A stretch of 48,515 nucleotides of DNA, taken from NCBI GenBank assembly GCA_017383485.1, contig JAFNXM010000010.1, positions 1-48,515 on the forward strand. Reading direction: 5' to 3'. The DNA is from Bacteroidaceae bacterium. Lineage in GTDB: Bacteria > Bacteroidota > Bacteroidia > Bacteroidales > Bacteroidaceae. Below are positions 846-45,740 of the stretch, piece after piece. The position numbers and the translations under genes are program-made. Every line of letters begins with the position of its first letter. Position 1 is the first letter of the stretch. Below the pieces are notes generated by a model, which saw only the letters and a program-made list of their open reading frames with translations, was not told the origin of the DNA and made no database searches.

Positions 846-927
846 AAAAAGTCAAGGGTTTGTTGAAAAAAAGTCTAAGGAAATTTTTACGAGGCGTCGC
901 GAAATTTTCACAAACCCTTGACTTTTT
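846..927 (+). repeat. Dispersed 21-bp core repeat, copy 1, with perfect 18-bp arms
   Basis: The core CGAGGCGTCGCGAAATTT lies at 890-907. It is enclosed by a perfect 18-bp inverted repeat, 846-863 against 910-927 (AAAAAGTCAAGGGTTTGT and its complement), separated by 46 bases. The element sits between the convergent BIG2 gene and TonB receptor gene. The same core recurs at six other intergenic loci in this window. The rest of the 751-1159 gap shows no convincing gene. Confidence 0.85.
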
Positions 928-1159
928 CGGTCATTTTGTATCTGAAAATTGTGCGACAAACGCTTGCTTTTTCACAAAAAACATAGAAAAACCTTAGGTT
1001 TTGCACATTTTTACCCGAAAAGTCCTCTTTTTTAATGCTTCGTACGTAGCGTATTTGCGAACGAAGGTGCGGTTGGTGATTTTTACGCGATTCTCGTGGT
1101 GTTAATCTCGCACAATTTTATGGAATTATTTGGTGGAGGTAGCTAATAAAAATAAAAAG

Positions 1160-1236
1160 AATCTCACGCCAATCTATGCATCTACAGAATTTGTTTTTTA
1201 ATAAATTCCAAAGATTTTAAAGATTGGCGTGAGATT
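1160..1236 (-). terminator. Long inverted repeat, probable terminator of the TonB receptor
   Basis: A perfect 16-bp inverted repeat, AATCTCACGCCAATCT at 1160-1175 and its complement at 1221-1236, separated by 45 A/T-rich bases. Read on the minus strand it follows the receptor stop codon and is succeeded by TCTTTTTATTTTTATT, as expected for factor-independent termination, although the loop is unusually long. It could instead be the end pair of a small mobile relic. Confidence 0.55.
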
Positions 1237-1259
1237 AAAAAAATCGTGTGAGTTTTTAC

Positions 1260-3491
1260 TTAAAACTTCAAAGTCAGATTAACCAGAAAATTTGTCCCTG
1301 CCTGTGCTGCATAGCCAGTATAGTTGACACGATTGTCGGGGGTATTGAGATATTCGGACGATGCCCAGCCATTGGATTCGTACTTAGCGTTGAAGAGGTT
1401 GTAGACTGAGGCACCCACGCGTATGCTTCGTGCATAGCGACGAGGGGTAAATGTGTAACTGAGGTGGAGATTGGTCACACTGTAGTCGTCCAGCAGATGC
1501 TCCGCAACGTCTGCATTGCTCATATACTGCTCGCCTACATATTGCGTCTGGAGGTCTGCTCGCAGTCCTCGCCATGTATAACTCAAGTTGCTATTTGCTA
1601 TAACTTCGGGAGAGAAAGCGATGTGCGTATCGCCGTGGTCGATGACAGCGGCAGGCAGTTCGTTCCAATCGGCGTCGTATCCGTAAATCGTTTCCTTGAA
1701 GTCTCGAATACGATTGCGTGAAAGTGTAACATTTCCCTTCCATTCTACACCACAAGGTAGCGAGAATCCACCCTGCAATTCCACACCTGCCCGATAACTC
1801 CTTGCGACGTTTGCCGAGACTGGTTCGCCGATTTCATTCAGTTCACCTGTAAGCACCAACTGATTGCGATAGTTCATCCAATAGAGGTTGGTGCCCACGT
1901 GCCAGCACTTGTCTGCATAAGTCGCACCCAGTTCGTAGTCAATGAGTCGTTCGGGGCGTGGCAGTTCGGTGAAGTAGCCATCCGTATAATTATTGCGCGT
2001 GGGTTCCTTGTGCGCCATAGACACAGAGGCAAAGAGGCGCAGGTGTTGATTGGCTTGCCAATTGATCCCAGCCTTGGGATTGAAGAAATGGAAACGTTCA
2101 TTCAGGTCAAGCCCTTGCATGCCAGTACCTGCATACGAATTGTACTTGTCATTAGTCCCCTCAATGCGGTAACGGATATAGCGATATTGTGCATCTGCAT
2201 AGGCTGTGATGCCTTTCCCCAGCAGATATTCTGCTCGAAGGTAGACATTGGCATCCGTCTTGTTTGCCTCATTGCGATAATAGTCGGTGTTGGGGTCAAG
2301 TGCTCCAATGTAATTCTTCACCCAAAGCACTCTGCCGAAGTGATCGCCGATGTAGTGGTTAGCAGCTCCGCCCAAAGTAGCACGGAGTCTATTGTCGTGA
2401 TAATTGACTGAAGCTACGGCGCCCGCAAAGTGATTGTCCATCGCCTTCTTGCGCACCAAGTCGCTACGCTTCACCATTTCGCCATTCACCTCGTAGGGCA
2501 GCATACCATATTCTATCAGTTTGCGGTCAGTCTTGTACTCCTGATAGTAACCATCCCCCTTGGTGTAGTGAGCACCCAAGTGTGCGCTCCAATTGTTGGT
2601 GAACCGATGGTCCAGGAGCAACTGTAGATTGGTCTGCACATAGTTGTCTGTCTGATCTTCATAGAAATGCTGCACACCCGCCGAGTCGGTGTACATATAG
2701 CCGCACGAGTTGTAGCGTCTGCCATACTGTTCCATTTCTTCGCGCGAAGCATAGTTCCACGCATGATAGGTCTGCTCCTTTCCTCCGAAGGTAATAAGGC
2801 GTGCCGAAGTAGCTGCGCCGACCCATGCCGCCTGAGCGTAGAAAGATTGCAAGTGTGCCGAAGCACGATCAATATAGCCGTCAGTGCCAATATTGGATAG
2901 TCTCAGGTCAAAGGTCCAATGGTTTTTCAGCAAACCCGTACCCAGACGTAAGGTCTCCTTGTGAGTGAGAAACGAACCAAAGGAAGCGCTCACTTCGGCG
3001 TAAGGTTTGTGCGAGAAATCAGCGGTCTGCAGATTCATGCTGGCACCAAAAGCACCTGCACCGTTGGTCGATGTACCCACACCGCGTTGCAGTTGGATAT
3101 CCTTGACGCTGGATGCAAAGTCGGGCATATTCACCCAAAAGACACTATGGCTCTCGGCATCGTTGACGGGGATACCGTTGGCGGTGACGTTGATTCGTGT
3201 AGCGTCTACCCCACGGATGCGCACCGAGGTGTAGCCGATACCGGCTCCTGCGTCGCTTGTGCTGACCACTGAGGGCGTATTGCTGATCAGATACGGGATG
3301 TCTTGCCCATGATTGTTGCGACTGATTTCGTCGCGCGACAGGTTGGTGAAAGCAATTGGTGTCTGCTGTGTAGCACGCGTAGCAATGACGCTGGCTTCGC
3401 CCAATACGTGATGGATAGAGTCTCCCTCGGTCTGTGCGACACAAGGCATCAGGCCCACGACAAGGGCCGTTGTTGAAATAAATCTTTTCAT
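1260..3491 (-). CDS. TonB-dependent outer-membrane receptor, predicted thiamin transporter (OMthi type)
   Basis: A 743-residue receptor. It begins with a signal peptide (MKRFISTTALVVGLMPCVAQ). A plug domain follows at about residues 40-155 with typical text (VRIRGVDATRINVTANGIPVND, here as a pattern R-I-R-G-x-D-x-x-x-x-x-V-x-x-N-G-I-P), then a beta-barrel ending in the terminal phenylalanine (LTLKF) that outer-membrane proteins use for insertion. There is no N-terminal carboxypeptidase-like domain, so it is not a SusC-type receptor. The substrate call rests on the TPP riboswitch directly upstream: receptors under THI elements in Bacteroidetes are established thiamin importers. Energy would come from a TonB-ExbBD complex such as the one at 46090-48515. 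It appears monocistronic, with its own promoter and a hairpin after the stop. If the riboswitch were wrong, the safe call would be siderophore/vitamin receptor of unknown substrate. Confidence 0.9.
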   Translation of the reverse strand: MKRFISTTALVVGLMPCVAQTEGDSIHHVLGEASVIATRATQQTPIAFTNLSRDEISRNNHGQDIPYLISNTPSVVSTSDAGAGIGYTSVRIRGVDATRINVTANGIPVNDAESHSVFWVNMPDFASSVKDIQLQRGVGTSTNGAGAFGASMNLQTADFSHKPYAEVSASFGSFLTHKETLRLGTGLLKNHWTFDLRLSNIGTDGYIDRASAHLQSFYAQAAWVGAATSARLITFGGKEQTYHAWNYASREEMEQYGRRYNSCGYMYTDSAGVQHFYEDQTDNYVQTNLQLLLDHRFTNNWSAHLGAHYTKGDGYYQEYKTDRKLIEYGMLPYEVNGEMVKRSDLVRKKAMDNHFAGAVASVNYHDNRLRATLGGAANHYIGDHFGRVLWVKNYIGALDPNTDYYRNEANKTDANVYLRAEYLLGKGITAYADAQYRYIRYRIEGTNDKYNSYAGTGMQGLDLNERFHFFNPKAGINWQANQHLRLFASVSMAHKEPTRNNYTDGYFTELPRPERLIDYELGATYADKCWHVGTNLYWMNYRNQLVLTGELNEIGEPVSANVARSYRAGVELQGGFSLPCGVEWKGNVTLSRNRIRDFKETIYGYDADWNELPAAVIDHGDTHIAFSPEVIANSNLSYTWRGLRADLQTQYVGEQYMSNADVAEHLLDDYSVTNLHLSYTFTPRRYARSIRVGASVYNLFNAKYESNGWASSEYLNTPDNRVNYTGYAAQAGTNFLVNLTLKF

Positions 3492-3589
3492 TATCGTAAT
3501 GATTAAGTTAATAATGAAAAGGGGGATCTAGATGGTGTGTGAAAATCAGCAGCGAGCAGCCGGCATGCTACTACAAATCTGCACAATAC

Positions 3590-3678
3590 CTTCTACCATT
3601 TCCTACGCCGGCATTATCCGGTTCAGGTACTTGGGTATGATCTCAGCCCAACAAATCGTTGAGCACCCCTTAGTAAAA
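3590..3678 (-). promoter_or_regulatory. TPP (THI-box) riboswitch aptamer
   Basis: Read on the minus strand, the conserved blocks of the thiamin pyrophosphate aptamer occur in order: AGGGGTGCTC, then GGGCTGAGATCATACCC, then ACCTGAACCGGATAATGCC followed by GGCGTAGGAA. The outer P1 helix can form between UACUA (5' side, about 3672-3676) and UGGUA (3' side, about 3594-3598). The aptamer lies between the promoter and the receptor start, about 100 bases upstream of the ATG. The expression platform is not obvious: no strong hairpin with a U-run was seen, so control may be at translation. Confidence 0.95.
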
Positions 3679-3686
3679 GTCGTGGG

Positions 3687-3718
3687 CAAAGGTAGAGGAA
3701 TATTTTGAAAAATCCAAA
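3687..3718 (-). promoter_or_regulatory. Bacteroidetes promoter for the thiamin receptor
   Basis: On the minus strand, TTTG (3715-3718) and TACCTTTG (3687-3694, matching TAnnTTTG) are separated by 20 bases. Transcription would start about 3680, exactly at the 5' edge of the TPP aptamer. The upstream stretch 3719-3893 holds no gene that I can support. Confidence 0.75.
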
Positions 3719-3893
3719 TATTTTTTGAAAAAGTCCAAAGACGCAAATATTCGGAAGTCTGAGATGTTTGCTCTTGCCCTAGTCTTTTGACCTATACGCC
3801 TAGTTCTTTTGTTGGAATAGGATAATCAGAGGGCTCAGAATATTCAGCAAAGTTATTACGAGTTCAAAAATCAAATAGTTTTCCTAAAATACA

Positions 3894-3929
3894 AGGGACA
3901 ACATCCGCTCTACGACAGACATTGTCCCT
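3894..3929 (-). terminator. Weak terminator after the TPR gene
   Basis: AGGGACAA (3894-3901) pairs with TTGTCCCT (3922-3929) across a 20-base loop. On the minus strand it follows the TPR-protein stop codon and is succeeded by TGTATTTTAGG. The short stem and broken U-run make this a moderate call. Confidence 0.45.
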
Positions 3930-3970
3930 GTGATATAGTTCCCGCACCACCAGTGTGGCGCATGTGCTAT

Positions 3971-4954
3971 CTAAAAACCATAAGGGTTCATTCCCTTGAA
4001 TCGCGCATTCATTTCGTTTTCGAGATTCGAGAATTCACCTTCGATCACGCTGGCAGCATCGGGTTGCAATTCCAGGCTCTTCTTCAGGTCCTCTGCCGCC
4101 CCCTTTTCGTTGTGCAATTTGTACTTCACCGCGCCGCGCTCACGATAGGCTTCGGCAAAGTCGGGTTGCAGTTCGATCGTTTCGTTCCACATGCCCAGAG
4201 CATCACTCCAGCGCTCCGTAGCGGCCAGGATTGTGCCCAGAAGCAGACTCGCTTCGCGGTGGAAGGGGTTGAGTTCGAGCAAACGGCGCACTGCTGCTTC
4301 GGCGCCGTCATTATCTCCTGTCTGCAGCAGCCCCTGTGCGTGCAAGTGGTGCACTTCTTCGTTTTCGGGTGCCAGTTCGAGCAGATGTGCCGTATCCTCT
4401 ATCGCCTGAGCGCCTTGTCCCATAGACACCAGCACACGAGCACGTAGCAGGTAGGCGGGCAGGAATTCGGCATCTTCGGCCAGGATTTGCGTCAGTGTGG
4501 CTACGGCAAAGATAGCGTTGCCTGTATGAAAGTCGGCCTCAGCTACGAGATAGCGCACCGAGATTTCCTGTGCATCTTCTGCCTTCACTCGGCCGAGCGT
4601 CTGGCGCATTTCTGCGTACATCTGCAGTTCTCCCTCCGCACGAGCCAGGAGTAGCATGACGTTGGTATTTTCTGGCTCGGCATCGGCCAGTACGGCGAGC
4701 ACCTCGCGTGCTTGTTCATAACTGCCCTGACGGAAGAGCGCCTCTGCCAGGAGTGCTTGGACTGCCAAGTCATCTTGTATCTCGAGCGCTGCTTCGAAAC
4801 ATTTCACGGCAAAGGGTATTTCGCCCATAGACATGGCACGCACACCATCATCGCGCAGGGTATTGAAATTGCGTGTTTGGCTGGCTTCACTTTGCTCGGG
4901 CGTCGCCGAAGCCTCTTTGTTTGAAGCGCCAAATAGTTTGCTTAAAAAAGACAT
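3971..4954 (-). CDS. Tetratricopeptide-repeat protein
   Basis: A 327-residue, acidic, alanine/leucine-rich helical protein. At least five TPR units can be seen, for example A-x-x-x-x-E-x-x-x-x-E-E-V-x-x-L-x-A-x-x-L near residues 165-210 and a C-terminal unit with DFAEAYRERGAVKYKL. There is no signal peptide or membrane segment, so it should be cytoplasmic and act as a protein-binding scaffold; no partner can be named. It lies 140 bases downstream of fabI on the same strand, and the two may be co-transcribed, with the gap filled by degenerate word repeats. The first in-frame ATG (MSFLSKLFGASNKE) gives a normal N terminus. A specific role is unknown. Confidence 0.85.
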   Translation of the reverse strand: MSFLSKLFGASNKEASATPEQSEASQTRNFNTLRDDGVRAMSMGEIPFAVKCFEAALEIQDDLAVQALLAEALFRQGSYEQAREVLAVLADAEPENTNVMLLLARAEGELQMYAEMRQTLGRVKAEDAQEISVRYLVAEADFHTGNAIFAVATLTQILAEDAEFLPAYLLRARVLVSMGQGAQAIEDTAHLLELAPENEEVHHLHAQGLLQTGDNDGAEAAVRRLLELNPFHREASLLLGTILAATERWSDALGMWNETIELQPDFAEAYRERGAVKYKLHNEKGAAEDLKKSLELQPDAASVIEGEFSNLENEMNARFKGMNPYGF

Positions 4955-4961
4955 ACTTTGT

Positions 4962-5094
4962 AGGAGTTAACGAGTTAATGAGTTGACAAGTTCACGAGTT
5001 AACAAGTTGACGAGTTGACGGGTTGTGGGGAGGGTGAGTTGACTTGTCCACTTGTCCACCAGTCTACTTGTCCACCAGTCCACTTGTCCACTTC
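4962..5094. repeat. Degenerate word-repeat spacer (GAGTTAAC / CTTGTCCAC)
   Basis: Two simple-repeat blocks fill the gap between fabI and the TPR gene. The first is made of variants of GAGTTAACAAGTTGAC, the second (5041-5094) of CTTGTCCACCAGTC variants with a period near 24. No gene. Similar word-repeat filler recurs at 7133-7255, 24360-24433, 25218-25275 and 33605-33735. Confidence 0.7.
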
Positions 5095-5952
5095 TTATCC
5101 ATAGATCACCTTACCCTCTTCGTCTTCGTAGGGGGCCAGATCCTTGGCATATTGATTCATGGCACGGAGGCTCATACCCATTGACGAGAAGCCGCCGTCG
5201 TGATAGAGATTCTGCATAGTCACCTTGCGTGTGAAGTCTGAGAAGAGCATCACGCAGTAGTCAGCACACTCGTCGGCCGAAGCATTGCCGAGCGGAGACA
5301 TCTTGCCGGCGAAGTCCATCAGGTTCTCCATCTCCTTGATACCCTTGCCCGCAGTCGTGGGTGTGGGCGATTGCGATATGGTATTGACGCGCACGCCCTT
5401 TTCGCGGCCATAGATGTAGCCAAAGCCACGTGCGATGCTTTCCAGCATACTCTTGGCATCTGCCATATCATTGTAGCCGAAGAATGTGCGTTGTGCTGCG
5501 ACATAGGTCAGTGCTACCACACTGCCGCCCTCGGCGATGGCGTCTTGTTTCTTAGCCACTTGCAACATTTTGTGGAACGAAATGGCCGAGATATCCAGGG
5601 TCTTTTGCAGGTAACCGTAGTCCAGGTCATCATACGTACGACCCTTGCGCACGTTGGGGCTCATGCCGATCGAGTGCAATACGAAGTCTACGGGGCCGCC
5701 AAAGTGCTGTACGCTTTCGGCAAATACACGTTCCAAGTCCTCTACGCTTGTTGCATCGGCGGGGATGATTGGGGCATTGAGGCGTTCGGACAGTTCGTTC
5801 AGTTCGCCCATACGCAGCGCCATGGGTGTGTTGCTCAGTGTGATCTGTGCACCCTCGGCCACACAGCGTTCTGCTACCTTCCAAGCGATAGACTCTGAGT
5901 TGAGCGCGCCAAATATGATACCACGTTTCCCTTTCAATAAATTGTGTGTCAT
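5095..5952 (-). CDS. fabI: Enoyl-[acyl-carrier-protein] reductase (NADH), FabI
   Basis: A 285-residue short-chain dehydrogenase-type enzyme that performs the last reduction of each fatty-acid elongation cycle in the cytoplasm. The N terminus has the FabI nucleotide-binding text (GIIFGALNSESIAWKVAE, residues 11-28). The catalytic pair is present: Tyr160 and Lys167 in the Tyr-x6-Lys arrangement YNDMADAK, with the second conserved tyrosine at 150. The substrate-loop text SPTPTTAGKGI is also FabI-like. Length is slightly above the usual ~260 because of a C-terminal extension (about 20 residues), common in Bacteroidetes homologues. A -7 box lies 86 bases upstream of the start. Triclosan-type inhibitors act on this family; nothing in the sequence suggests an altered target. 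Confidence 0.96.
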   Translation of the reverse strand: MTHNLLKGKRGIIFGALNSESIAWKVAERCVAEGAQITLSNTPMALRMGELNELSERLNAPIIPADATSVEDLERVFAESVQHFGGPVDFVLHSIGMSPNVRKGRTYDDLDYGYLQKTLDISAISFHKMLQVAKKQDAIAEGGSVVALTYVAAQRTFFGYNDMADAKSMLESIARGFGYIYGREKGVRVNTISQSPTPTTAGKGIKEMENLMDFAGKMSPLGNASADECADYCVMLFSDFTRKVTMQNLYHDGGFSSMGMSLRAMNQYAKDLAPYEDEEGKVIYG

Positions 5953-6037
5953 CTTTTTCTAATTTTGGGGTTGATAATCATCGTCCTCAATACCATACTA
6001 TAATAAATATAAAATAAGGACGACCTTGAAATCGGCA

Positions 6038-6045
6038 CAAAAGTA
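6038..6045 (-). promoter_or_regulatory. Probable -7 box for fabI
   Basis: Minus-strand TACTTTTG matches TAnnTTTG and lies 86 bases upstream of the fabI ATG. The expected -33 position has CTTG instead of TTTG at 20-base spacing, so this is a partial match. Confidence 0.5.
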
Positions 6046-6216
6046 CGCATTTTGTGCAAGGTGAACAAGGGAAACGCCTAAAAAGGTGGTAGAGTAGGGG
6101 AATTCGGCCCTGCTTTTTGCACTTTGGAGTAGTGTAATCAAGCCTATTTTGCGGCATAGCCCGCTTGTCTTGCTTCTTGCAGGTCGACGTGATTGAAAAC
6201 CCTCAAAAAATAGTGT

Positions 6217-6304
6217 GAAAAAAAGGTTAGACCTTTTTCAAAAAACATTAGACCTTTTTTTAACGAGGCGTCGCGAAATTTTTACAAGGTCTTGACTTTT
6301 TTTC
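6217..6304 (+). repeat. Dispersed 21-bp core repeat, copy 2, with duplicated left arm
   Basis: The core occupies 6262-6282. The left arm word TTAGACCTTTTT is present twice (6226-6238 and 6248-6260), and the right arm is ACAAGGTCTTGACTTTTTTT. The outermost segments 6217-6235 and 6286-6304 pair with 16 of 19 matches. This is the only copy found between divergent genes (fabI and the IMP cyclohydrolase gene). Apart from this element and two promoters, the 585-base gap holds nothing I can support. Confidence 0.8.
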
Positions 6305-6479
6305 GGAACTTTTGAGGGCGAAAAAAATAATTAGCACAGGAGGGGATTTTTGCGTGTTGTGAATACCCGCAGAATGACTTTGGGCGAGTTTTGTGTGTGT
6401 TCACATGCGAACTTGTTCATTCCGCTTTGCAAGTCGCTATGACATAGTAAGAAAAAAACAAAAAACTTTCGACTTTCGT

Positions 6480-6510
6480 TTTGTTCTCCGCTTACCTTTC
6501 ACTAACTTTG
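6480..6510 (+). promoter_or_regulatory. Bacteroidetes promoter upstream of IMP cyclohydrolase and mre genes
   Basis: TTTG at 6480-6483 and TAACTTTG at 6503-6510 are spaced by 19 bases, fitting the -33/-7 consensus. The ATG lies 28 bases beyond the -7 box. Confidence 0.8.
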
Positions 6511-6538
6511 TAGCCAAATTATAAAAAGGATAAAAACT

Positions 6539-7132: not shown

Positions 7133-7255
7133 TTAAGTAGACGAGTAAACTTGTAAACAAGTGGGTCAACACTCGTACACTCGTCTGTTAATAACCTGTT
7201 TACTAGCAACTCGTCAACTTGTTTACTAGTAACTTGTCTACCACAAATATTTGTA
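7133..7255. repeat. Degenerate word-repeat spacer (ACTCGT / ACTTGT / GTTTACTAG)
   Basis: The gap between the IMP cyclohydrolase gene and mreB is built from variants of AACTTGTTTACTAGTAACTTG and ACTCGTACACTCGTC. No gene or clear terminator, so read-through into mreB is possible. Confidence 0.65.
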
Positions 7256-7280
7256 ACTAAAAAACAGACCTTAAAATATA

Positions 7281-8318
7281 ATGGGTATTTTCTCAAACTT
7301 TTTCTCATTCACCCAAGAAGTGGCTATCGACTTGGGTACAGCCAATACGGTGATCATTTGCGACGACGAAATCGTTGTGAACGAACCCTCTGTTGTAGCG
7401 CTGGATCGCAACACTGACAAGATGGTTGCAGTGGGTAGCGAAGCAAAACTGATGTATGAAAAAACTAATGATAAGTACCGTGTGATTCGCCCTTTGCAAG
7501 AAGGTGTTATCGCCGACTTCAACGCGACAGAGCAAATGCTTCGCGGTCTTATCAAAATGGTGCATCGTGGACACAGACACCTCTTCTCGCCATCACTTCG
7601 TATGGTCGTAGGCGTGCCAAGTGGTGCTACTGACGTGGAATTGCGCACAGTGCGCGACTCGGCTGAACATGCTGGCGGACGCGACGTATTCCTCCTGTTC
7701 GAACCTATGGCTGCGGCAATCGGTATCGGTATCGATGTGACTAAACCCGAGGGCAACATGATCGTGGATATAGGTGGTGGTACGACAGAAATCGCCGTGA
7801 TCTCGATGGGTGGCATCGTGTCAAACAACTCTATCAAGATGGCGGGCGACGACTTTACTGCAGACATCCAGGACTACATGAGCCGTCAACACAACGTGCG
7901 TGTCAGTGAACGTATGGCTGAACGTATCAAAATCAACGTTGGAGCTGCGCTGACAGACCTTGGCAGCAATGCACCCGAAGACTATGTGGTGAATGGTCCA
8001 AACCGTATCACAGCAATGCCAATGAAGGTGCCTGTATGCTATCAAGAAATTGCACACTGTCTGGAAAAGTCTATTACTAAGATCGAACAGGCTGTGATCA
8101 GTGCCCTTGAAAATACACCACCTGAACTCTACGCAGATATCGTGGAAAATGGTATCTATCTCACTGGCGGTGGTGCTTTGCTCAGAGGACTTGACAAGCG
8201 CCTCTATGACAAGATTAAGATTCCTTTCCACGTGGCAGAAGATCCGCTCTTGTGCGTAGCCAAGGGTACGGGTATCGCTCTGAAAAACGTAGAAAAATAC
8301 AATTTCTTGAAAAGATAA
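7281..8318 (+). CDS. mreB: Rod-shape-determining actin homologue MreB
   Basis: A 345-residue MreB. It assembles ATP-dependent filaments on the inner face of the cytoplasmic membrane and steers the elongasome. Actin-fold motifs are present: phosphate-1 text IDLGTANTVI near residues 16-25, phosphate-2 text MIVDIGGGTTEIAVIS near 158-173, and the adenosine text GIYLTGGGALLRGLD near 291-305. An amphipathic N terminus (MGIFSNFFSFTQE) can bind membrane. It is the first gene of the mreB-mreC-mreD-mrdA-rodA set. A strong hairpin with a U-run follows it, which should lower expression of the downstream genes relative to MreB. Confidence 0.97.
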   Translation: MGIFSNFFSFTQEVAIDLGTANTVIICDDEIVVNEPSVVALDRNTDKMVAVGSEAKLMYEKTNDKYRVIRPLQEGVIADFNATEQMLRGLIKMVHRGHRHLFSPSLRMVVGVPSGATDVELRTVRDSAEHAGGRDVFLLFEPMAAAIGIGIDVTKPEGNMIVDIGGGTTEIAVISMGGIVSNNSIKMAGDDFTADIQDYMSRQHNVRVSERMAERIKINVGAALTDLGSNAPEDYVVNGPNRITAMPMKVPVCYQEIAHCLEKSITKIEQAVISALENTPPELYADIVENGIYLTGGGALLRGLDKRLYDKIKIPFHVAEDPLLCVAKGTGIALKNVEKYNFLKR

Positions 8319-13840: not shown

Positions 13841-13943
13841 GAAAAAGAAGTCTGACCTTGTAGAAAAAAGATTAGACTTAAATTAAAAAAGGTTAGACCT
13901 TTTTTTCACGAGGCGTCGCGAAATTTTAAGCAGGTCTAACCTT
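13841..13943 (+). repeat. Dispersed 21-bp core repeat, copy 3, with a three-fold left arm
   Basis: The core is at 13907-13927. The adjacent arms AAGGTTAGACCT (13889-13900) and AGGTCTAACCTT (13932-13943) are perfect complements. Two further degenerate arm units lie upstream (GAAGTCTGACCTTG at 13848-13861 and AGATTAGACTTAAATT at 13869-13884). The element lies just downstream of pepD and after the terminator at 13751. Confidence 0.8.
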
Positions 13944-13960
13944 GTTTCAAATGGGTCTTA

Positions 13961-15418
13961 TTATTTCTTTGGTGTGCGTTCGAGCGTAGCCAGTACGAAA
14001 CGCCAGTATTTTTCTACACTTGGGATGAAGCAACGTTCATCTGGTGTATGAGGGCTACGCAAAGTTGGGCCGAAGCTCACCATGTCCATGCCTGGAGTCT
14101 TAGCGCCGATGATACCACATTCCAAACCAGCGTGGATTACCTGTACACTGCATGCTGTGCCAAAGAGGTCGCTGTAGACTTGCTTCATCAGTTCTACGAT
14201 TTCGCTTTGAGGATTGGGTTGCCAAGCAGGGTAGTCGCCATCGAGTTCCACCTTCATGCCTGCCATAGCAAAAGCACTTTCGAGCGTTTCTGCAAGGGCT
14301 TCGCGCATTGAGTCGCGTGATGAGCGGATCAAGATCTTGAAGAAACATTCGCCGCCGCCGATTTCAACGATGGCCAAGTTGGAAGATGTTTCAACGATAG
14401 CAGGTACTTCGGGGATAAAGCGATATACACCATTGTGGCAAGCGCAGAGTGCGTTGACCAAATTATCTTGTACTTCTTCGGGCACTTGTTGTGCAGGCAA
14501 AGCCACGTCTGCTACTTCCAGGGTTAAAGTCTTTTCAACAAAACCATACTCGCCAGTGAAAGTTTCACGCCATTCGTCTACGACTTCCTTCAATGCTGCC
14601 ACATTTTCCTTAGGCAAAGTGAGCACTACCTCTGCTTCGCGAGGAATAGCATTACGCATATTGCCACCTTTCCATGATGCCAGGCGTGCTTCGAAGTTGG
14701 CGATAGCGTCTTGTACCAAGCGTGCCATCAATTTGTTGGCATTAGCGCGACCTTCGTTGATTTCAAGGCCAGAGTGTCCGCCGTACAGACCGCCCAACTT
14801 CACGCATACTGCACCGTCTTCTTGATCAGTTTCCACTTCCTTGTATGAAAGTGTCGCAGTCATGTTCACACCACCTGCCGATCCAATGATAAATTCGCCT
14901 TCAGTCTCGTTGTCGAGGTTCAACAGAATTTCGCCTTTCAACGAACCGGGTTCCATGTCGTTCACACCGCCCATTGTGCTTTCTTCGTCGGCGGTAATGA
15001 AACCTTCCAGAGGACCATGCTTCAACGTGTTGTCCTCCATGATAGCCATGATAGTAGCCACTGCCATACCATCGTCGGCACCGAGTGTTGTGCCCTTGGC
15101 TTTTACCCACTCGCCGTCGATATAGGTTTGGATGGGGTCGTTTTCGAAGTCGTGTGTAGAGTCTGCTGCCTTTTGTGGTACCATGTCCATGTGGCCTTGC
15201 AGGGTTACTACCTTACAGTCCTCCATGCCTGGCGTTGCTGCCTTATACATCAAGATATTTCCGGCTGCATCTTGGTGCGCTTCAACACCTTTTTCTGCGG
15301 CCCAGTCGAGCAGGAACTTTTGTATCTTTTCGAGATGTCCCGAGGGGCGAGGTACTTGTGTCAGCAAGTAGAAGTTTTTCCAAATCGCTTCGGGTTGTAG
15401 GTTTTTGATTTCGCTCAT
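13961..15418 (-). CDS. pepD: Aminoacyl-histidine (cytosol non-specific) dipeptidase, M20 family
   Basis: A 485-residue metallopeptidase that hydrolyses dipeptides such as Xaa-His and carnosine-like substrates in the cytoplasm. M20C motifs are present: His76 and Asp78 in LQGHMDMV (first zinc ligand and catalytic support), Asp115 in GADDGMA (bridging ligand), the Glu145-Glu146 pair in ADEES (catalytic base and ligand), and AGLECGIIG plus a late histidine in RSPHTPDE. The lid domain insertion (about residues 205-375) is present. Length matches E. coli PepD (485). It is transcribed after the flippase-like gene, 38 bases downstream of its stop. Confidence 0.96.
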   Translation of the reverse strand: MSEIKNLQPEAIWKNFYLLTQVPRPSGHLEKIQKFLLDWAAEKGVEAHQDAAGNILMYKAATPGMEDCKVVTLQGHMDMVPQKAADSTHDFENDPIQTYIDGEWVKAKGTTLGADDGMAVATIMAIMEDNTLKHGPLEGFITADEESTMGGVNDMEPGSLKGEILLNLDNETEGEFIIGSAGGVNMTATLSYKEVETDQEDGAVCVKLGGLYGGHSGLEINEGRANANKLMARLVQDAIANFEARLASWKGGNMRNAIPREAEVVLTLPKENVAALKEVVDEWRETFTGEYGFVEKTLTLEVADVALPAQQVPEEVQDNLVNALCACHNGVYRFIPEVPAIVETSSNLAIVEIGGGECFFKILIRSSRDSMREALAETLESAFAMAGMKVELDGDYPAWQPNPQSEIVELMKQVYSDLFGTACSVQVIHAGLECGIIGAKTPGMDMVSFGPTLRSPHTPDERCFIPSVEKYWRFVLATLERTPKK

Positions 15419-17578: not shown

Positions 17579-17637
17579 AAAAAAACCTAAACCTTTTTTT
17601 AACGAGGCGTCGCGAAATTTTTTTGGCGTTTTTTCGT
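17579..17637 (+). repeat. Dispersed 21-bp core repeat, copy 4 (short arms)
   Basis: The core is at 17601-17621 with the left arm AAACCTAAACCTTTTTTT. The right arm is degenerate (TTTTGGCGTTTTTTC), pairing only weakly with the left. It lies immediately past the rsmA terminator, before the arginine operon promoter region. Confidence 0.75.
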
Positions 17638-17675
17638 AGGCCAAATAGAAGGCTTATTTTTGTTCTAAAATCTAA

Positions 17676-25217: not shown

Positions 25218-25275
25218 AATTTATTGAGGTTAAGAGGTTGTGTGGTTATAAGGTTAAGAGGTTATATGGTTTTGA
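25218..25275. repeat. Degenerate word-repeat spacer (GGTTAAGAGGTT)
   Basis: Copies and variants of GGTTAAGAGGTTATATGGTT between the DUF4250 and DUF3822 genes; no gene. Confidence 0.55.
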
Positions 25276-28539: not shown

Positions 28540-28627
28540 AAAAAAAGTCAAGGCCTTGTTAAAATTTCGCGACGCCTCGTTAAAATTATCTTAGACCTTT
28601 TTTCAACGAGGCGTCGCGAAATTTTTC
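28540..28627. repeat. Dispersed 21-bp core repeat, copies 5 and 6, head-to-head pair
   Basis: A minus-oriented core at 28561-28581 and a plus-oriented core at 28605-28625 face each other across 23 bases (AAAATTATCTTAGACCTTTTTTC). They form a near-perfect 21-bp inverted repeat. The minus copy keeps the right arm ACAAGGCCTTGACTTTTTTTCGG (as complement at 28538-28560), nearly the same as at 6284-6306. The rest of the 28628-28737 gap shows nothing else. Confidence 0.85.
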
Positions 28628-38804: not shown

Positions 38805-38819
38805 ATTTTTACATTAAAG

Positions 38820-38867
38820 ACAACATCAGGCAACCCCCGAAATCAGAGGTTGCCTGATGTTGTTTTA
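38820..38867 (+). terminator. Terminator of the redox-pair unit
   Basis: ACAACATCAGGCAACC (38820-38835) and its exact complement (38848-38863) form a 16-bp stem; TTTTAT follows. Confidence 0.88.
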
Positions 38868-38947
38868 TGCGCCAAGGTTTATGAATTTTTAAGAAAGTTT
38901 ATGGATATTTAGGAAATGCATTAGGCTTTTGGGGCAGAGAGTAAATC

Positions 38948-39039
38948 CAATTTTCAACAAACCCAGGACTTTTTCAAATAAACCTAGACCTTTTTTTAAC
39001 GAGGCGTCGCGAAATTTTCACGAAGTCTTGACTTTTTTC
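38948..39039 (+). repeat. Dispersed 21-bp core repeat, copy 7, with duplicated left arm
   Basis: The core is at 38998-39018. Two left-arm units precede it (AACCCAGGACTTTTTC and AAACCTAGACCTTTTTTT), and the right arm is CACGAAGTCTTGACTTTTTTC. It lies past the terminator at 38820. The remainder of the 38805-39327 gap holds the hairpin at 39062 and a -7 box, and no gene I support. Confidence 0.8.
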
Positions 39040-39061
39040 ACCCGTAAAATAGACAAAAATA

Positions 39062-39093
39062 TGGGGAATTGCCAGTGTTTAGGCAACTCCCCA
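39062..39093 (-). terminator. Orphan terminator-like hairpin
   Basis: TGGGGAATTGCC (39062-39073) pairs with GGCAACTCCCCA (39082-39093), 11 of 12, over an 8-base loop. On the minus strand ATATTTTTG follows, like an intrinsic terminator, but no minus-strand gene lies before it. Confidence 0.5.
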
Positions 39094-39267
39094 CATTTCT
39101 ACCACAAAGATACAATTTTTTTTGCCAAGGTCCAAATCTGTGTTAACGGAGATTAACAATTGCTTTGCGCTGGTAGTTGGTGTCCGAAAAAGTACAATAT
39201 TGGGCGCGTGGAAGTCTTCTATATTATAAATATAGCAGATGATTCATCGCAATTAAAGATTTTTCGA

Positions 39268-39275
39268 TAACTTTG
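39268..39275 (+). promoter_or_regulatory. -7 box of mnmA
   Basis: TAACTTTG, a perfect TAnnTTTG match, 52 bases before the ATG. No -33 TTTG at usual spacing. Confidence 0.5.
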
Positions 39276-39327
39276 TACCTTTGTGGCGTGTGCGCGCCAG
39301 TGAACCCTTAAAAAAAGATACAACGAT

Positions 39328-40458: not shown

Positions 40459-40492
40459 TTGATAAAATGTGATTGAATAAAGACAAAAGAAT

Positions 40493-42034
40493 ATGATGAA
40501 AAAGTATTTTGCAGCATTGGGTTTGATGCTTTTCGCTAATATTACTCTTAGCGCACAGGCGCCGCAGGATGAGGATCACCCCATCGTGGATGTTGTCATC
40601 GATGCCTCATGCAGTGATGACGAGGCGATAGATGAAAGTGTCGAAAATTATTTCTATCCAACGAAGGCGTATCGTTATCGTGTCACTCTGACGGACAAAA
40701 AAAATAATCCTTATTCTGTGAAACGCCCCGAGGAGTTTCTTTCAAAAAAAGCCTTGGATCGTCGCAAAAAATTAGGCATTAAGGTGGATCAATACGACTT
40801 GCCCATCACACCATGTTATCTGCAAAGCCTACAGTCCGCAGGCGTGAAAATCCATAATATGAGCAAATGGAACAATACCGTCGTGGTGGAGGTGAAAGAT
40901 ACGGCACAGGCCGAAGCACTTCTGGCCCTGAACTTTGTGAAAGAGGTGAAAAAAGTGTGGGAACAGGTGGACAGCATCTCGCGTGATGATAATAAATTCC
41001 TGTTGACTGCGGTATTGCAAGGCATCGTGCCAATGGATTCGGCAAATTATTATATGGATGAAGACAGAAAGGCACTTTTGAGCAACAAATTGCCCAAGAT
41101 GCACGATGACTACGGTAATGGTTTGACAGCCGTAGATATGTTGAAATTGCAGACTCTGCACGAGATGGGTTTCCGTGGTCAAGGGATGACCGTGGCAGTG
41201 ATTGATGGCGGTTTCCGTAATGTCGATTTAATTGAGGCTTTCAAGGATTGCAAGATCATTGGAACAAAGAATTTTGCACACCCTGGATTTAGTGTTTATC
41301 GTGAGTTTGAAGATCACGGTACAATGGTATTTTCGACTTTGGCAACGAATCGTGAATTCCAGATGGTGGGCACTGCACCCGAGGCGTCGTATCTGCTCCT
41401 GCAAAGCGAGGATGGATTGACCGAACAATTGGTGGAGGAAGACAATTGGTGTGCAGCGGTGGAATATGCCGACAGTATCGGTGTAGACCTGATCACCACG
41501 TCGCTCGGTTATTACGCATTTGACGACAAAACTACTTCGCACAAATACGAAGAACAAGATGGTATGACTGCAATCAATAGTCGCAGTGCTTCCTTGGCGG
41601 CGAGTCGTGGTTTGTTGGTGCTGAACAGTGCGGGCAACGAAGGCGATGGCGCTTGGAAGAAAATAGGTTTTCCAGCTGATGCCAAGGATATCTTGACCGT
41701 AGGTGCGGTGAACGAAAAAGAAGTAAACACGGTCTTCTCATCTTTGGGCAATACGGCTGACGGACGTATCAAACCCGACGTGATGGCATTTGGTGAATAC
41801 GTGCCAATGATTAATGATTCGGGCAGTTTGGTATATGCCAGCGGTACGTCGTTCTCTTGTCCTATTATGTGCGGAGCTGTGACTTGTCTGTGGCAAGCCT
41901 TCCCTAACAAGAAGCCTGTGGAAATCATTCGCGCAGTACAGGCAGCAGGACACATGGCTAAGCGTCCCAACAATGTCTTTGGATATGGCATCCCAAATAT
42001 GAATGTGGCGTACAAAATCCTTGATGGTAAATAA
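40493..42034 (+). CDS. Exported subtilisin-like serine protease (S8)
   Basis: A 513-residue protein with signal peptide MMKKYFAALGLMLFANITLSAQA. A prodomain-like region (about 55-160) includes KAYRYRVTLTDKKNNPY and LSKKALDRRKKLGI, common in Bacteroidetes secreted subtilases. The catalytic triad is Asp238 (AVIDGGF), His275 (EDHGTMV) and Ser453 (SGTSFSCP), and the oxyanion asparagine lies in NSAGNEG. No obvious sorting tail; the protein ends right after the domain (VAYKILDGK). Likely periplasmic or surface. Two consecutive ATGs (40493, 40496) are equivalent starts. It may be co-transcribed with mnmA. Confidence 0.92.
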   Translation: MMKKYFAALGLMLFANITLSAQAPQDEDHPIVDVVIDASCSDDEAIDESVENYFYPTKAYRYRVTLTDKKNNPYSVKRPEEFLSKKALDRRKKLGIKVDQYDLPITPCYLQSLQSAGVKIHNMSKWNNTVVVEVKDTAQAEALLALNFVKEVKKVWEQVDSISRDDNKFLLTAVLQGIVPMDSANYYMDEDRKALLSNKLPKMHDDYGNGLTAVDMLKLQTLHEMGFRGQGMTVAVIDGGFRNVDLIEAFKDCKIIGTKNFAHPGFSVYREFEDHGTMVFSTLATNREFQMVGTAPEASYLLLQSEDGLTEQLVEEDNWCAAVEYADSIGVDLITTSLGYYAFDDKTTSHKYEEQDGMTAINSRSASLAASRGLLVLNSAGNEGDGAWKKIGFPADAKDILTVGAVNEKEVNTVFSSLGNTADGRIKPDVMAFGEYVPMINDSGSLVYASGTSFSCPIMCGAVTCLWQAFPNKKPVEIIRAVQAAGHMAKRPNNVFGYGIPNMNVAYKILDGK

Positions 42035-42070
42035 TAATAGGTAGCACATCTATATTATATATATTGTATA

Positions 42071-43408
42071 GTGACTGAATATCTCACACCCTCTACCTCG
42101 ATCCCTTACCTTCGTCTCTCCGAGATGAATGCTTTGGTGCAGGCTGTGTTGCAAAGTGAATTTTGCGACAGGTATTGGGTGGTGGCAGAGTTGAGTGAGG
42201 TGCGCCGCCGACCGGGTAGTCATTGCTACATCGAACTGATAGAAAAAGAAGCTAATGGCAATCGCTTGTTGGCCAAGACCAGCGCGGTCATCTGGAACGG
42301 CGTGTACGATGAGGTCGTTCCCGAATTTGAACGTATCACTGGCATGCCTTTTGCTTCGGGCATCAAGGTGCTGCTGCAAGTGAGTTTGTCCTTTCACGAA
42401 GTCTATGGTTTGAAATTTGTCGTCGAGGATATCGACCCATCTTTTACCCTGGGCGAACAACAACGCAGACGTCAACAAATCCTCGACCAACTGAAAGCAG
42501 ACGGTGTGCTGACGTTGAATCAAGAGTTGGACTTTCCGCAATTGCCCCTGCGTGTGGCGGTGGTCAGTAGCGCTTCGGCGGCAGGATACGGCGACTTTAT
42601 GAAGCAAATTGAAGCCTCGCCATTCGCCTTCCATACTCAATTGTTTCCAGCGGTAATGCAGGGCGACAGGGTAGAGGAAAGTGTGATAGCTGCCCTTGAA
42701 GAAATCGCAGAACAAGAGGCGGAGTGGGACTTGGTCGTAATCATTCGTGGCGGAGGTGCTGTGAGCGATCTCAATGGTTTTGAATCCTATCTATTAGCCG
42801 CCCATGTAGCGCAATTTCCTCTGCCTGTGCTCACAGGGATCGGTCATGAGCGCGACGAGACTGTGATAGATTTGGTAGCGCATCGGCGATTGAAGACCCC
42901 TACTGCCGTGGCCGCATTTCTGATCGAAATATTGCAGGGTGAAGCAGAGACTTTGACGACTTTTTCTCAATATATAAAGAGTGGGGCAGAGGCTTTGTTG
43001 CTGCGTGAAGAGGAGTTGTTGAAACGTGCTGAGATGAACCTTGGAACATGCGCTCATCACGCAGTGCAAAATGCCGAACAGCGTTTACAACTATTGACAC
43101 AAAATATAGGTGGCGCGGCTTTGGCCTATCTTGGTCAGTGGAATGAGCGCATACGCTTTTGGAATTTGCAAATAGAGCAGGGAGCGCAGCAGGTATTGCA
43201 CACTTCGGCGCAAAAACTCGACGCTCTGGAAAAAGTAGTGCACATGGCGGATCCGCAGCGTATCCTGGATTTGGGATTCAGTCTGACCCTGAAGGACGGA
43301 CATCCCATCACTGATGCAGAGAAGTTGATGAAAGGTGATCGTGTGGTGATCTTGTTGAAAAATGGCAAGGTGGAAAGCGAAATTAAGGAAATATATAATA
43401 ATAAATAA
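42071..43408 (+). CDS. xseA: Exodeoxyribonuclease VII large subunit
   Basis: A 445-residue subunit of the single-strand-specific exonuclease that helps in DNA repair. N-terminal OB-fold text: YLRLSEMNALVQAVLQSEFCDRYWVVAELSEVRRRPGSHCYIELIEK (in parts). The catalytic domain has RVAVVSSASAAGYGDF (about 157-172), the DLVVIIRGGGAVSDLNGFES stretch (about 219-238) and TGIGHERDETVIDLVAH (about 256-272), followed by long coiled coils (about 290-400). Start codon is GTG at 42071. It is followed after 15 bases by xseB. Confidence 0.95.
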   Translation: MTEYLTPSTSIPYLRLSEMNALVQAVLQSEFCDRYWVVAELSEVRRRPGSHCYIELIEKEANGNRLLAKTSAVIWNGVYDEVVPEFERITGMPFASGIKVLLQVSLSFHEVYGLKFVVEDIDPSFTLGEQQRRRQQILDQLKADGVLTLNQELDFPQLPLRVAVVSSASAAGYGDFMKQIEASPFAFHTQLFPAVMQGDRVEESVIAALEEIAEQEAEWDLVVIIRGGGAVSDLNGFESYLLAAHVAQFPLPVLTGIGHERDETVIDLVAHRRLKTPTAVAAFLIEILQGEAETLTTFSQYIKSGAEALLLREEELLKRAEMNLGTCAHHAVQNAEQRLQLLTQNIGGAALAYLGQWNERIRFWNLQIEQGAQQVLHTSAQKLDALEKVVHMADPQRILDLGFSLTLKDGHPITDAEKLMKGDRVVILLKNGKVESEIKEIYNNK

Positions 43409-43423
43409 TAGACGCTATCAAAT

Positions 43424-43615
43424 ATGGCAGCATCAAAAATGACCTATCAAAAGGCCGTGAAGGAATTGGAAGATATCGTGCAAACACTATCCCAAGGGCA
43501 GGTGGATATCGACCAATTGGCAGAGCGAATCCAACGCGCTAAGGAGTTGCTGGGATTCTGCAAAGAGAGATTGTATAAAGTAAATGCTGAGGTAAACGAA
43601 ATATTAGAAAAATGA
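43424..43615 (+). CDS. xseB: Exodeoxyribonuclease VII small subunit
   Basis: A 63-residue helical protein. Family text: [17 protein letters not shown] (residues 4-20), [19 protein letters not shown] (25-43) and [17 protein letters not shown] (46-62). Several XseB copies bind each XseA. The stop codon overlaps the trmB start as ATGA, indicating translational coupling. Confidence 0.94.
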
Positions 43616-44388
43616 GCAAGAATAAATTGTCTAAATTTGCAGACATGAAGGAATATCCTCATGTCTTTGAAGCGCCTTTCGCTGCTTTGGAAGAGGCTAC
43701 ATTTGACATGAAGGGCAGATGGCATCAGGATTTTTTCAAAAATGATAATCCTATCGTGCTCGAACTGGGATGTGGTCGCGGCGAATATACTGTTGGGCTG
43801 GCAAAACTCTTCCCCGAAAAGAATTTCATTGGCATCGATATCAAAGGGGCCAGAATGTGGCACGGCGCAACTGAATCTTTGAAGGCAGGGATGAGTAATG
43901 TTGCTTTCCTTCGCACACATATCGAATTTATCGAGCGATTCTTTGCTCCAGGTGAAGTAAGCGAAATTTGGTTGACATTTAGTGATCCGCAAATGAAGAA
44001 AGCCACTAAGCGTCTGACCTCAACCTATTTCTTGAATCGCTATCGCAAATTCTTGATAGATGGTGGGCAAGTGCACGTCAAGACAGACTCGAATTTCCTT
44101 TATACTTACACCGGCTATGTGGCGTCTGTGAATCATTTGCCTGTAGCAGTGCAAACAGCAGATCTCTATAACGATTTGGCGCCAAAGTCTGATGAACACA
44201 CAGCGAAGATACTGGGCATAAAAACTTACTATGAGGAACAATGGTTGGCGCGTGGGTTGAATATAAAATTCATTAGTTTCAGACTGCCGCAAGAAGGCGA
44301 ATTGGAAGAACCCTGTATCGAAATCGAACTGGATGACTATCGCAGTTATAACCGTTCAAAGCGTTCGGGCTTGGAAAAAAGTATGTAA
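43612..44388 (+). CDS. trmB: tRNA (guanine46-N7)-methyltransferase TrmB
   Basis: A 258-residue SAM-dependent enzyme that makes m7G46 in tRNA. SAM motif I reads [21 protein letters not shown] (in part; E-L-G-C-G-x-G near residue 47), followed by [15 protein letters not shown], and the catalytic region [20 protein letters not shown] (about 122-141), where the canonical F-P-D-P becomes F-S-D-P. The C-terminal [12 protein letters not shown] text is family-like. Length is above the bacterial mean (~220-240). It overlaps xseB by four bases. Confidence 0.93.
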
Positions 44389-44441
44389 TTTTGCTGAGCT
44401 AAATCAAGAAAAACTTAGACCTTATACAATATATAATATAT

Positions 44442-45542
44442 ATGACACTCTATCCAAAACTAATCATAGATGCGCTCTCGACAGTACGCTATCCTGGTAC
44501 AGGAAAGAATATAGTCGAAGCCGAAATGCTGGAAGACGATCTCCGTATTGATGGTATGAACGTCTCCTTCTCCATTATTTTTGACAAACCCACAGATCCT
44601 TTTACCAAGTCGGTGGTAAAATCTGCCGAGGCGGCAATTCATACTTACGTTTCAAAGGATGTGAACGTCGCCATCTCTATCAAGAGCCTGCAAGCCGCTC
44701 GCCCCGAACCTGGCAAGATGTTGCCGCAGGTAAAGAACGTTATTGCCGTGAGTTCAGGCAAGGGCGGGGTCGGTAAGAGTACCGTAGCAGCCAATCTAGC
44801 CGTAGCTTTGGCTAGCCAAGGATACAGCGTCGGCTTGCTTGATGCTGATATTTTTGGCCCCTCTGTGCCCAAGATGTTCCACCTCGAAGCAGAGCGTATC
44901 TTTGCCCAGGAATACGAAGGACGGCAATTGCTTATCCCCGCTGAAAAGTACGGTGTAAAGATCCTGTCTATCGGTTTCTTTGTAAATCCCGAGACAGCGA
45001 CTTTGTGGCGCGGCGGTATGGCGTCAAATGCTTTGAAACAACTCATCGCTGATGCCTTGTGGGGCGAACTGGATTACTTGGTTTTGGACACACCTCCCGG
45101 CACCAGCGATATACACCTCACCCTGTTGCAAAACCTCGCTATCACGGGTGCAGTGATCGTTTCGACTCCGCAAAATGTAGCCTTGGCTGATGCCAAGAAG
45201 GGTATAGATATGTATCGCAACGAAAAGGTCGGCGTGCCCATCCTTGGTATGGTAGAAAATATGGCTTGGTTTACACCCCAAGAATTGCCTGAAAATAAAT
45301 ACTACCTCTTTGGTAAAGAAGGCGTGAAACGCTTGGCAGAAGAAATGAATGTACCTCTGTTGGGCCAAATCCCTATCGTGCAATCCATCTGTGAAAGCGG
45401 TGATGAAGGCGAACCTGTGGCAGTCAACGAAGACTCAATCATCGGTCAAGCCTTCGCAGATCTGGCACGCCGTGTGGTAGAGGAAACAGCCAAGCGCAAC
45501 GAGATGCTGCCACCCACTGAAATCGTAGAAATGAAAAAGTAA
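44442..45542 (+). CDS. Mrp/ApbC-type iron-sulfur carrier ATPase, lacking the CxxC motif
   Basis: A 366-residue P-loop protein of the Mrp/NBP35 family. Residues 1-95 are a DUF59/MIP18-like domain; the ATPase starts with the deviant Walker A AVSSGKGGVGKSTVAANLA (about residues 101-119) followed by DADIFGPSVPKM and DTPPGTSDIHL. In E. coli and Salmonella homologues a C-terminal C-x-x-C holds the Fe-S cluster; here that place reads GMVENMAWFTPQELPENKYYLFGKEG (in part, about 264-289), with no cysteine. How it would carry a cluster is unclear, and other ligands or a different role are possible. A terminator follows. Confidence 0.88.
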   Translation: MTLYPKLIIDALSTVRYPGTGKNIVEAEMLEDDLRIDGMNVSFSIIFDKPTDPFTKSVVKSAEAAIHTYVSKDVNVAISIKSLQAARPEPGKMLPQVKNVIAVSSGKGGVGKSTVAANLAVALASQGYSVGLLDADIFGPSVPKMFHLEAERIFAQEYEGRQLLIPAEKYGVKILSIGFFVNPETATLWRGGMASNALKQLIADALWGELDYLVLDTPPGTSDIHLTLLQNLAITGAVIVSTPQNVALADAKKGIDMYRNEKVGVPILGMVENMAWFTPQELPENKYYLFGKEGVKRLAEEMNVPLLGQIPIVQSICESGDEGEPVAVNEDSIIGQAFADLARRVVEETAKRNEMLPPTEIVEMKK

Positions 45543-45562
45543 AAAACAATTTGAATAAACCA

Positions 45563-45602
45563 AGAAATCCCTTTGAGGCAATCGCTTTAAGGGGATTTTT
45601 TT
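45563..45602 (+). terminator. Terminator of the xseA-mrp unit
   Basis: GAAATCCCTT (45563-45572) pairs with AAGGGGATTT (45588-45597) with one bulge, followed by a run of TTTTT. Confidence 0.75.
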
Positions 45603-45656
45603 GTACACATTATTCCTCTGAACATACACCTCGGCGTCATGCCTTTTTATGAGCCG

Positions 45657-45740
45657 AAAATTTCGCGACGTCTCGTGAAAACTTTGCGACGCCTCGTTGA
45701 AATTTCGCGACGCCTCGTGAAAATTTCGCGACGTCTCGTT
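45657..45740 (-). repeat. Four-copy tandem array of the 21-bp core
   Basis: Four head-to-tail units at 45657-45677, 45678-45698, 45699-45719 and 45720-45740, exact 21-bp period, all in minus orientation. Units 1 and 4 carry GACGTCTCG, units 2 and 3 GACGCCTCG, and unit 2 has CTTTG in place of TTTCG. Only the outer flank GAAAAAAGGACTTGGC keeps an arm-like word. The array lies between the mrp terminator and the exbB promoter. A reading frame across it would encode TRRREIF repeats, but this is a by-product of the period being a multiple of three. Confidence 0.9.

Follow-up and report, generated by a model that had tools for sequence, protein, structure and literature searches.

The DNA analyzed here (the window, i.e., the whole stretch of 48,515 bp, contig JAFNXM010000010.1) is the complete contig C9 of a draft genome of a rumen member of the Prevotellaceae (Bacteroidaceae in the GTDB lineage), G000 (1.68 Mb, 64% complete), and its intergenic DNA contains seven arrays of short units built around a common 21-bp core. 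Results of our analysis indicate that these arrays belong to a genome-wide population of repeats, which keeps a 21-bp register, lies almost entirely between genes, is evenly spaced, occupies the same intergenic gaps in a sister species, and is spelled in a largely species-specific way, with spelling changes that take place in concert. We suggest, with a probability of roughly 0.4, that this intragenomic repeat population represents phased protein-docking arrays under a spacing constraint.

The original prediction listed eleven cores at seven places and proposed a functional or mobile unit: a protein-binding site, a repetitive extragenic palindromic (REP)-like element spread by a transposase, or a transcription-end element. 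A search of the whole window recovered all eleven cores at those seven places (11 matches at up to 3 mismatches vs. 0.05 expected; this number was reached in 0 of 100 shuffles). The count in the entire G000 genome at up to 2 mismatches is 235 (103 forward, 132 reverse), far from chance, the control with the reversed pattern giving 0. The repeat pattern is real and larger than first noted. The exact core is also present in nine stretches of rumen contigs labelled Prevotellaceae bacterium isolate cow7.9. The core is not widespread in Bacteroidales: only three of 61 genomes searched, the source genome included, contain matches (G000, 227; G001, 82; G003, 1), and neither the G000 core nor a 35-mer repeat of G003 described below has an exact match in viral_contigs. 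Several of the matches listed for G001 and G003 (at least 4 and 10, respectively) are no more than about 150 bp away from the beginning of a contig. The arrays seem to break short-read assemblies, and therefore the copy counts are probably lower bounds.

Array anatomy and the 21-bp register

Decoding outward from the cores in 21-bp steps revealed a unit that typically consists of six A-rich positions, a 9-bp middle, and six T-rich positions. The 448.5 kb decoded in this way contain 63 core-seeded arrays (inverted pairs being entered twice), of which 55 comprise three to six units and three a single unit. The number of core variants per array ranges from one to four, and both the ends of arrays and their unit number vary. 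While the repeat family noted in the original prediction withstood this analysis, the conserved arms on both sides of the core did not, as they are successive 21-bp units of the same array; in 19 of 60 arrays, the core is preceded on its left side by a unit with the middle CATTAGACC. Same-strand cores located at most 70 bp apart are separated by 21 bp (41 pairs), 42 bp (18 pairs), 63 bp (6 pairs), or 22 bp (one pair), i.e., 65 of the 66 pairs are in the 21-bp register. Five opposite-strand pairs, which come from three arrays, are 45, 45, 66, 87, and 108 bp apart, and all these distances equal 3 modulo 21. In these three arrays, the phase thus outlasted inversion, an outcome for which simple tandem duplication does not account. 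Twenty-one base pairs correspond to two helical turns. The arrays of the window, and the longer element in which the first of them is embedded, are as follows:

845-928, plus strand: array 1, four 21-bp units, core unit 887-907, fold z -6.16; the two outermost units are complementary and give a long hairpin
773-1126 (approximate), no strand: longer dispersed element around array 1, with flanks in common with seven other arrays
6219-6302, plus strand: array 2, four units, core unit 6261-6281, in a divergent gene gap, fold z -2.20
13843-13968, plus strand: array 3, five to six units, the last one weak, core unit 13906-13926, in a convergent gap, fold z of 13885-13947 -4.07
17579-17620, plus strand: array 4, two units, the core in 17600-17620, fold z of 17579-17641 0.42; a hairpin recognized by eye lies between ksgA and the array
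28541-28624, no strand: array 5, four units, two of them with cores in inverted orientation (28562-28579, minus; 28607-28624, plus) that share one 21-bp register, fold z -6.83
38955-39038, plus strand: array 6, four units, core unit 38997-39017, fold z 0.79, flanked by two 20-bp hairpins (38820-38863 and 39054-39101)
45658-45783, minus strand: array 7, four core variants and two A/T-type units, the outermost weak, fold z of 45658-45762 -1.70

The core of the window arrays folds as a 3-bp CGA/TCG stem, which in one array is extended by A/T-rich pairs. Three of the seven window arrays fold well (z of -4 or lower), and two fold worse than the mean of shuffles. A universal hairpin was rejected: the pairing of left and right units of the same array has a mean score of 7.4, as compared to 6.8 when partners are swapped (P 0.005), scores of at least 15 occur in 6 of 60 arrays vs. 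2.0 by swap, and scores of at least 18 in two vs. 0.6 (P 0.11). As the pairing barely exceeds that of partner swaps, the stem is not the conserved feature. A known RNA family could be dismissed too, since the covariance models of Rfam gave no match to the arrays in the window and in one further stretch (L265). The sole match at gathering scores was the thiamine pyrophosphate (TPP) riboswitch, whose aptamer (RF00059, 61.7 bits) lies at 3582-3680 of the window on the minus strand, upstream of the gene for a TonB-dependent receptor (1260-3491, minus strand). A clustered regularly interspaced short palindromic repeats (CRISPR) array was rejected on the grounds that the units abut without spacers; no search for cas genes was made. 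Tandem repeats of 7-8 bp (GAGTTGAC, GAGGTTAA, TTAGACG), which occur in intergenic DNA of the window (4964-5025 and 25226-25271) and in stretches of contig C6 of another genus member, G033, are apparently unrelated to the 21-bp arrays.

Placement, spacing, and conservation of the arrays

The absence of cores from genes, as originally described, holds for the window according to our own gene calls, and for the larger sample mostly but not wholly. In 508.5 kb of DNA (83% coding), 68 of 74 arrays have no contact with a predicted gene, four touch one, and two lie by more than half inside an open reading frame called by our crude gene-calling script. The proposed location shortly downstream of transcription units is a tendency and not a rule: of 73 arrays with a known context, 47 are between tandem genes, 14 in divergent gaps, and 12 in convergent gaps, and the median distance to a stop is 114 bp, as compared to 220 bp to a start. 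Predicted short-loop terminators adjoin the window arrays and none overlaps them, although the terminator scan, which covers loops of 3-8 bases, performed near chance (28 vs. 18.6, 22 vs. 17.5, and 11 vs. 11.5 expected from shuffles). Five sigma-70-like promoter matches (e.g., TTGAAA-16-TAAAAT) overlap arrays of the window (13923-13950, 28559-28586, 38950-38977, 45697-45724, and 45739-45766) in a scan that was modestly above shuffles. Promoters of Bacteroidetes differ from the sigma-70-like consensus. Bidirectional promoters have been reported for the BrickBuilt repeats of Porphyromonas gingivalis (PMC4596501).

The arrays are distributed evenly along the chromosome. In the discovery sample of G000, the mean spacing is 6.4 kb with a coefficient of variation (CV) of 0.44 at threshold 18, and 6.6 kb with a CV of 0.41 at threshold 30, whereas the same number of randomly chosen intergenic gaps gave CVs of 0.81-0.86; the observed evenness was reached in 0 of 2000 draws in each of six settings. 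The number of arrays in this sample (73 at threshold 18 vs. one in a shuffle) is fitted, since the position weights were trained on it. Contig C27 was held out, and the 60 kb of held-out DNA contain nine arrays whose eight spacings have a CV of 0.25 (P 0.007). In G001, in stretches picked partly by known matches, all 31 spacings are at least 3.7 kb (CV 0.30 vs. 0.57 in the null, 0 of 2000). In G033, where the units are spelled differently, all 21 spacings at threshold 25 are at least 8.4 kb (CV 0.52 vs. 0.94, 0 of 2000).

Comparison with the sister species G001 indicates that array positions are fixed while the spelling of units shifts genome-wide and in concert. Flanking genes could be matched in the sampled part of G001 for 41 of 223 gaps, of which nine contain an array in both genomes, 32 in neither, and none in one only; among the 22 matched gaps of at least 150 bp in both genomes, these numbers are nine and 13. 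Three of the nine gaps with arrays in both genomes (C4:79152, C36:160613, and C9:38955) have different array units, and blastn did not align the rest of the gap. In the gap at C3:48790, the two arms of an inverted pair have changed together. At position 5 of the core, 83 of 128 cores of G000 have G and 28 of 52 cores of G001 have A, and the ratio of CATTAGACC to CATTAGACT is 26:1 in the former and 4:6 in the latter.

A blind lag scan of intergenic DNA from 26 other species of the genus (748 kb) placed lag 21 at the top (29 loci in 14 of the 26 species, some of them low-complexity or GC-rich repeats, as in G015, G017, and G032), followed by lag 42 (21 loci) and lag 22 (13 loci), while each of the other lags from 7 to 63 gave at most nine loci. 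Each of three spellings that were tested is restricted to a single species or a pair of species: the 35-mer of G003 has 232 matches in this genome and none in 57 others, the second has 182 matches in G008, 221 in G020, and one weak match in G078, and the third has 226 matches in G080 and none in 57 others. Some spellings are seemingly related, as AGTCCAACG of G033 resembles AGTCTAACC of G000. Two tandem copies of A5-N9-T5 had to be rejected as a genus-wide pattern, since they were found in six of 58 genomes only, three of these with 1-12 matches, and other species spell their units otherwise. With arrays called by lags 21, 22, 42, or 44, the gap after Mrp contained an array in eight of 30 loci examined, two of which are artefacts by eye (a run of N in G011, a short-period repeat in G069), and the remaining six (G000, G001, G006, G018, G031, and G036) are differently spelled. 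The gap after KsgA contained an array in five of 30 loci and none in the rest, although the scan missed the window's own two-unit array at this site. Outside the genus, 18 of 20 order-level outgroup stretches were usable (259 kb, too little to judge), with one locus at lag 21, one at lag 22, and two at lag 23.

Other array families were also observed. In G054, of another family of the order, a clear 23-bp tandem family, CTCACAATCTTGTCAATTTTTAT, which has the unit length of BrickBuilt, occurs at 8227 and 9630 of stretch L246. A second family with 22-bp units, ATCATGCGCATGATAAGAA, accompanies the 21-bp one in G020 (L196, 7998-8154) and G008 (L270, 10428-10584). As regards orientation, all 18 listed array loci at up to 1 mismatch between 185 and 1093 kb of G080 contig C6 are on the plus strand, while those of contig C5 are mixed (10 minus, 9 plus). 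A link between the one-strandedness on C6 and the direction of replication is possible.

Proposed protein-docking arrays and rival explanations

The functional or mobile nature of the repeats, as originally proposed, is supported by their abundance above chance, intergenic placement, even spacing, occurrence in the same gaps of the sister species, and, for 8 of 74 arrays, location in a longer element. Among the specific proposals, we prefer, by inference, the protein-binding site to the REP-like and transcription-end elements. Each array would be a row of binding units, mostly three to six, set two helical turns apart, and copies of one DNA-binding protein could stack along them on one face of the helix. 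The feature common to different species is the rhythm and not the sequence, which suits such cooperative binding, and the even spacing points to a role of the set at the level of the entire chromosome. The arrays would be kept apart (few distances in G000 and none in G001 fall below about 3.7 kb, and few in G033 fall below about 8.4 kb), and protein-loaded patches might punctuate the chromosome roughly evenly, e.g., as anchors of the nucleoid or of supercoil domains. Units would be homogenized within a genome by copying between loci, and their drift between species would proceed together with the binding protein or be tolerated by it. A more far-reaching version, according to which this is an undescribed chromosome-wide spacing system with two-turn-phased arrays at a regulated distance, conserved in position and rhythm, written in species dialects, and co-evolving with a recognition protein and a copying machinery, is tentative, and we regard it as rather unlikely. 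Dispersed repeats of bacteria are usually regarded as debris, or as REP elements whose role is not clear. In the present case, the even spacing, the fixed helical register, and the concerted respelling of units in arrays that stay in place allow function and selfish spread to be told apart by direct tests. Should the arrays be bound by a protein, they would represent a novel type of chromosomal landmark in gut bacteria that are abundant but little studied, and would offer a natural experiment on the co-evolution of a protein with hundreds of sites.

Several observations weigh against docking arrays. The spelling differs widely between species, where a conserved protein should need a conserved sequence. 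No lag-21 locus was found in 12 of the 26 genus members, including the single-contig G004, in 15-60 kb sampled from each. The spacing argument has its exceptions, too: two spacings in G000 are about 2 kb, at the more permissive threshold of 18, 2 of 24 spacings in G033 are shorter than 2 kb, the deficit of spacings below 3 kb in G033 is weak if taken alone (P 0.05-0.28), and G000 and G001, being sister species, are not independent. Furthermore, insertion immunity can also yield a minimum spacing. The 232 copies of one 35-mer in G003 resemble mobile repeats. Finally, 8 of the 74 arrays, array 1 of the window among them, lie inside a dispersed element of about 350 bp with homologous flanks, and, with 11 more arrays added, some flank homology with another array is seen in 19 of 74.

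The last of these observations favor a non-autonomous mobile repeat similar to miniature inverted-repeat transposable elements, as BrickBuilt is, which would be moved by some enzyme, would be absent from genes because insertions there are lost, and would owe its even spacing to immunity conferred by unit-bound transposase. The scarcity of short spacings is consistent with such immunity, and the long element suggests that some arrays have spread as mobile units. Its flanks are shared over up to about 180 bp, and its terminal repeats, which are 331-332 bp apart in six of the eight cases and 353 bp in one, have the same orientation and are not inverted. In the element around array 1, one terminal repeat lies at about 773-794, while the other end is degenerate and its position extrapolated. 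Two arrays of G000 embedded in the long element (C36:74126-74230 and C36:80379-80483) enclose a segment of about 6.2 kb with three predicted genes. As their near-identical flanks are oppositely oriented, this segment could invert. The remaining 66 arrays lack defined ends. However, no flank homology with other arrays was found for 55 of the 74, array ends and unit number are variable, and target duplications were not seen on inspection by eye. The absence of gain or loss in the 41 matched gaps of the sister species, in spite of changed unit content, argues against recent mobility. We consider a mobile repeat with insertion immunity, the main rival, possible but doubtful.

A self-recognition signal for DNA exchange, in which biased uptake and recombination would spread and homogenize the units by molecular drive and thereby produce dialects and even spacing, seems unlikely; it accounts well for the dialects and the even spacing, but not for long arrays in phase. 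The species dialects, concerted drift at fixed positions, and even spacing of the arrays match what the available portions of the uptake literature describe (PMC1939737, PMC7811141, PMC3630211), although even spacing of uptake sequences is itself disputed there (PMC1939737). Long phased arrays are not expected of uptake sequences; nearby pairs bring no extra uptake in Haemophilus (PMC7811141), and 65% or 35% of uptake sequences lie inside open reading frames (PMC1939737), as far as these sources were covered. The competence genes are uninformative, since comEC (PF03772) and dprA (PF02481), matched in 49 and 54 of 58 genus members, respectively, are also found in 10-11 of 14 control genomes; the draft G000 has a dprA match and no comEC match. 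DNA uptake sequences are short, about 10-30 bp. The transcription-end element of the original prediction, taken together with insulators, is very improbable. The proximity of stops and the good folds of three window arrays would fit it, but it would not predict even spacing, 14 of 73 arrays lie between divergent starts, two window arrays fold below the shuffle mean, and no predicted terminator overlaps a window array, though in a scan close to the shuffled expectation.

Comparison with known systems

In protein-binding clusters of the parS or iteron type, sites that are arranged in tandem or clustered keep a helical phase, as do the units of the arrays. Such clusters are limited to a single locus or a few, whereas the arrays recur along every large contig examined.

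REP elements, with REPINs and bacterial interspersed mosaic elements, resemble the arrays in having many intergenic copies, often species-specific, inverted pairs, and a persistent intragenomic population, in the portions of the sources covered (PMC3733652, PMC8049555). A REP unit is described there as a palindrome with a GTAG or CGTC tag and a stem of 8-9 bp (CGTC) or 5-13 bp (GTAG) (PMC3733652). The window core, the only one folded, has no tagged stem-loop of 8-9 bp and was rejected as a REP or REPIN. The arrays differ also in their head-to-tail 21-bp register and in that some genomes bearing them lack a match to the Y1 transposase. PF01797 (Y1, or REP-associated tyrosine transposase, RAYT) gave a match in 28 of the 58 genomes of the genus, with 26 of these above the cut-off, including G000, G008, G020, and G080, but not in the array-bearing G033 and G062 (both 96% complete), G003, and G001; in G000, the match lies at C36:4087-4425, and the nearest detected array begins at C36:10925. 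Although REPs of the CGTC type also occur without RAYTs according to the part of the source available (PMC3733652), the missing Y1 match in G033 and G062 and the unfit core structure speak against the originally proposed REP-like element spread by a transposase.

Uptake sequences of Neisseriaceae and Pasteurellaceae are similar to the arrays in their dialects, reported even spacing, and homogenization by molecular drive (PMC3630211, PMC1939737, PMC7811141). In the portions of these papers available, they are single short sites, many of them in genes, as opposed to multi-unit arrays that are almost all intergenic and occur every 6-18 kb.

The nearest described element appears to be BrickBuilt, a minisatellite and miniature inverted-repeat transposable element of P. 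gingivalis (PMC4596501). In the open-licence literature, covered in part, no description resembling the 21/22-bp arrays was found for Prevotella or Bacteroidales apart from that of BrickBuilt, which does not establish the absence of such arrays from print. According to the part of the source covered, BrickBuilt, like the arrays, belongs to Bacteroidales, consists of tandem units (23 nt) without spacers, is always intergenic, has a leader and a tail in some copies, and varies in unit number between strains. It has IS5-like inverted terminal repeats and some target duplications, while the long form found here has ends of the same orientation, and neither even spacing nor a genus-wide change of spelling is described in that part. 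BrickBuilt is present in 19 copies with 23-bp units, as compared to 235 cores and units of 21 or 22 bp in the arrays described here.

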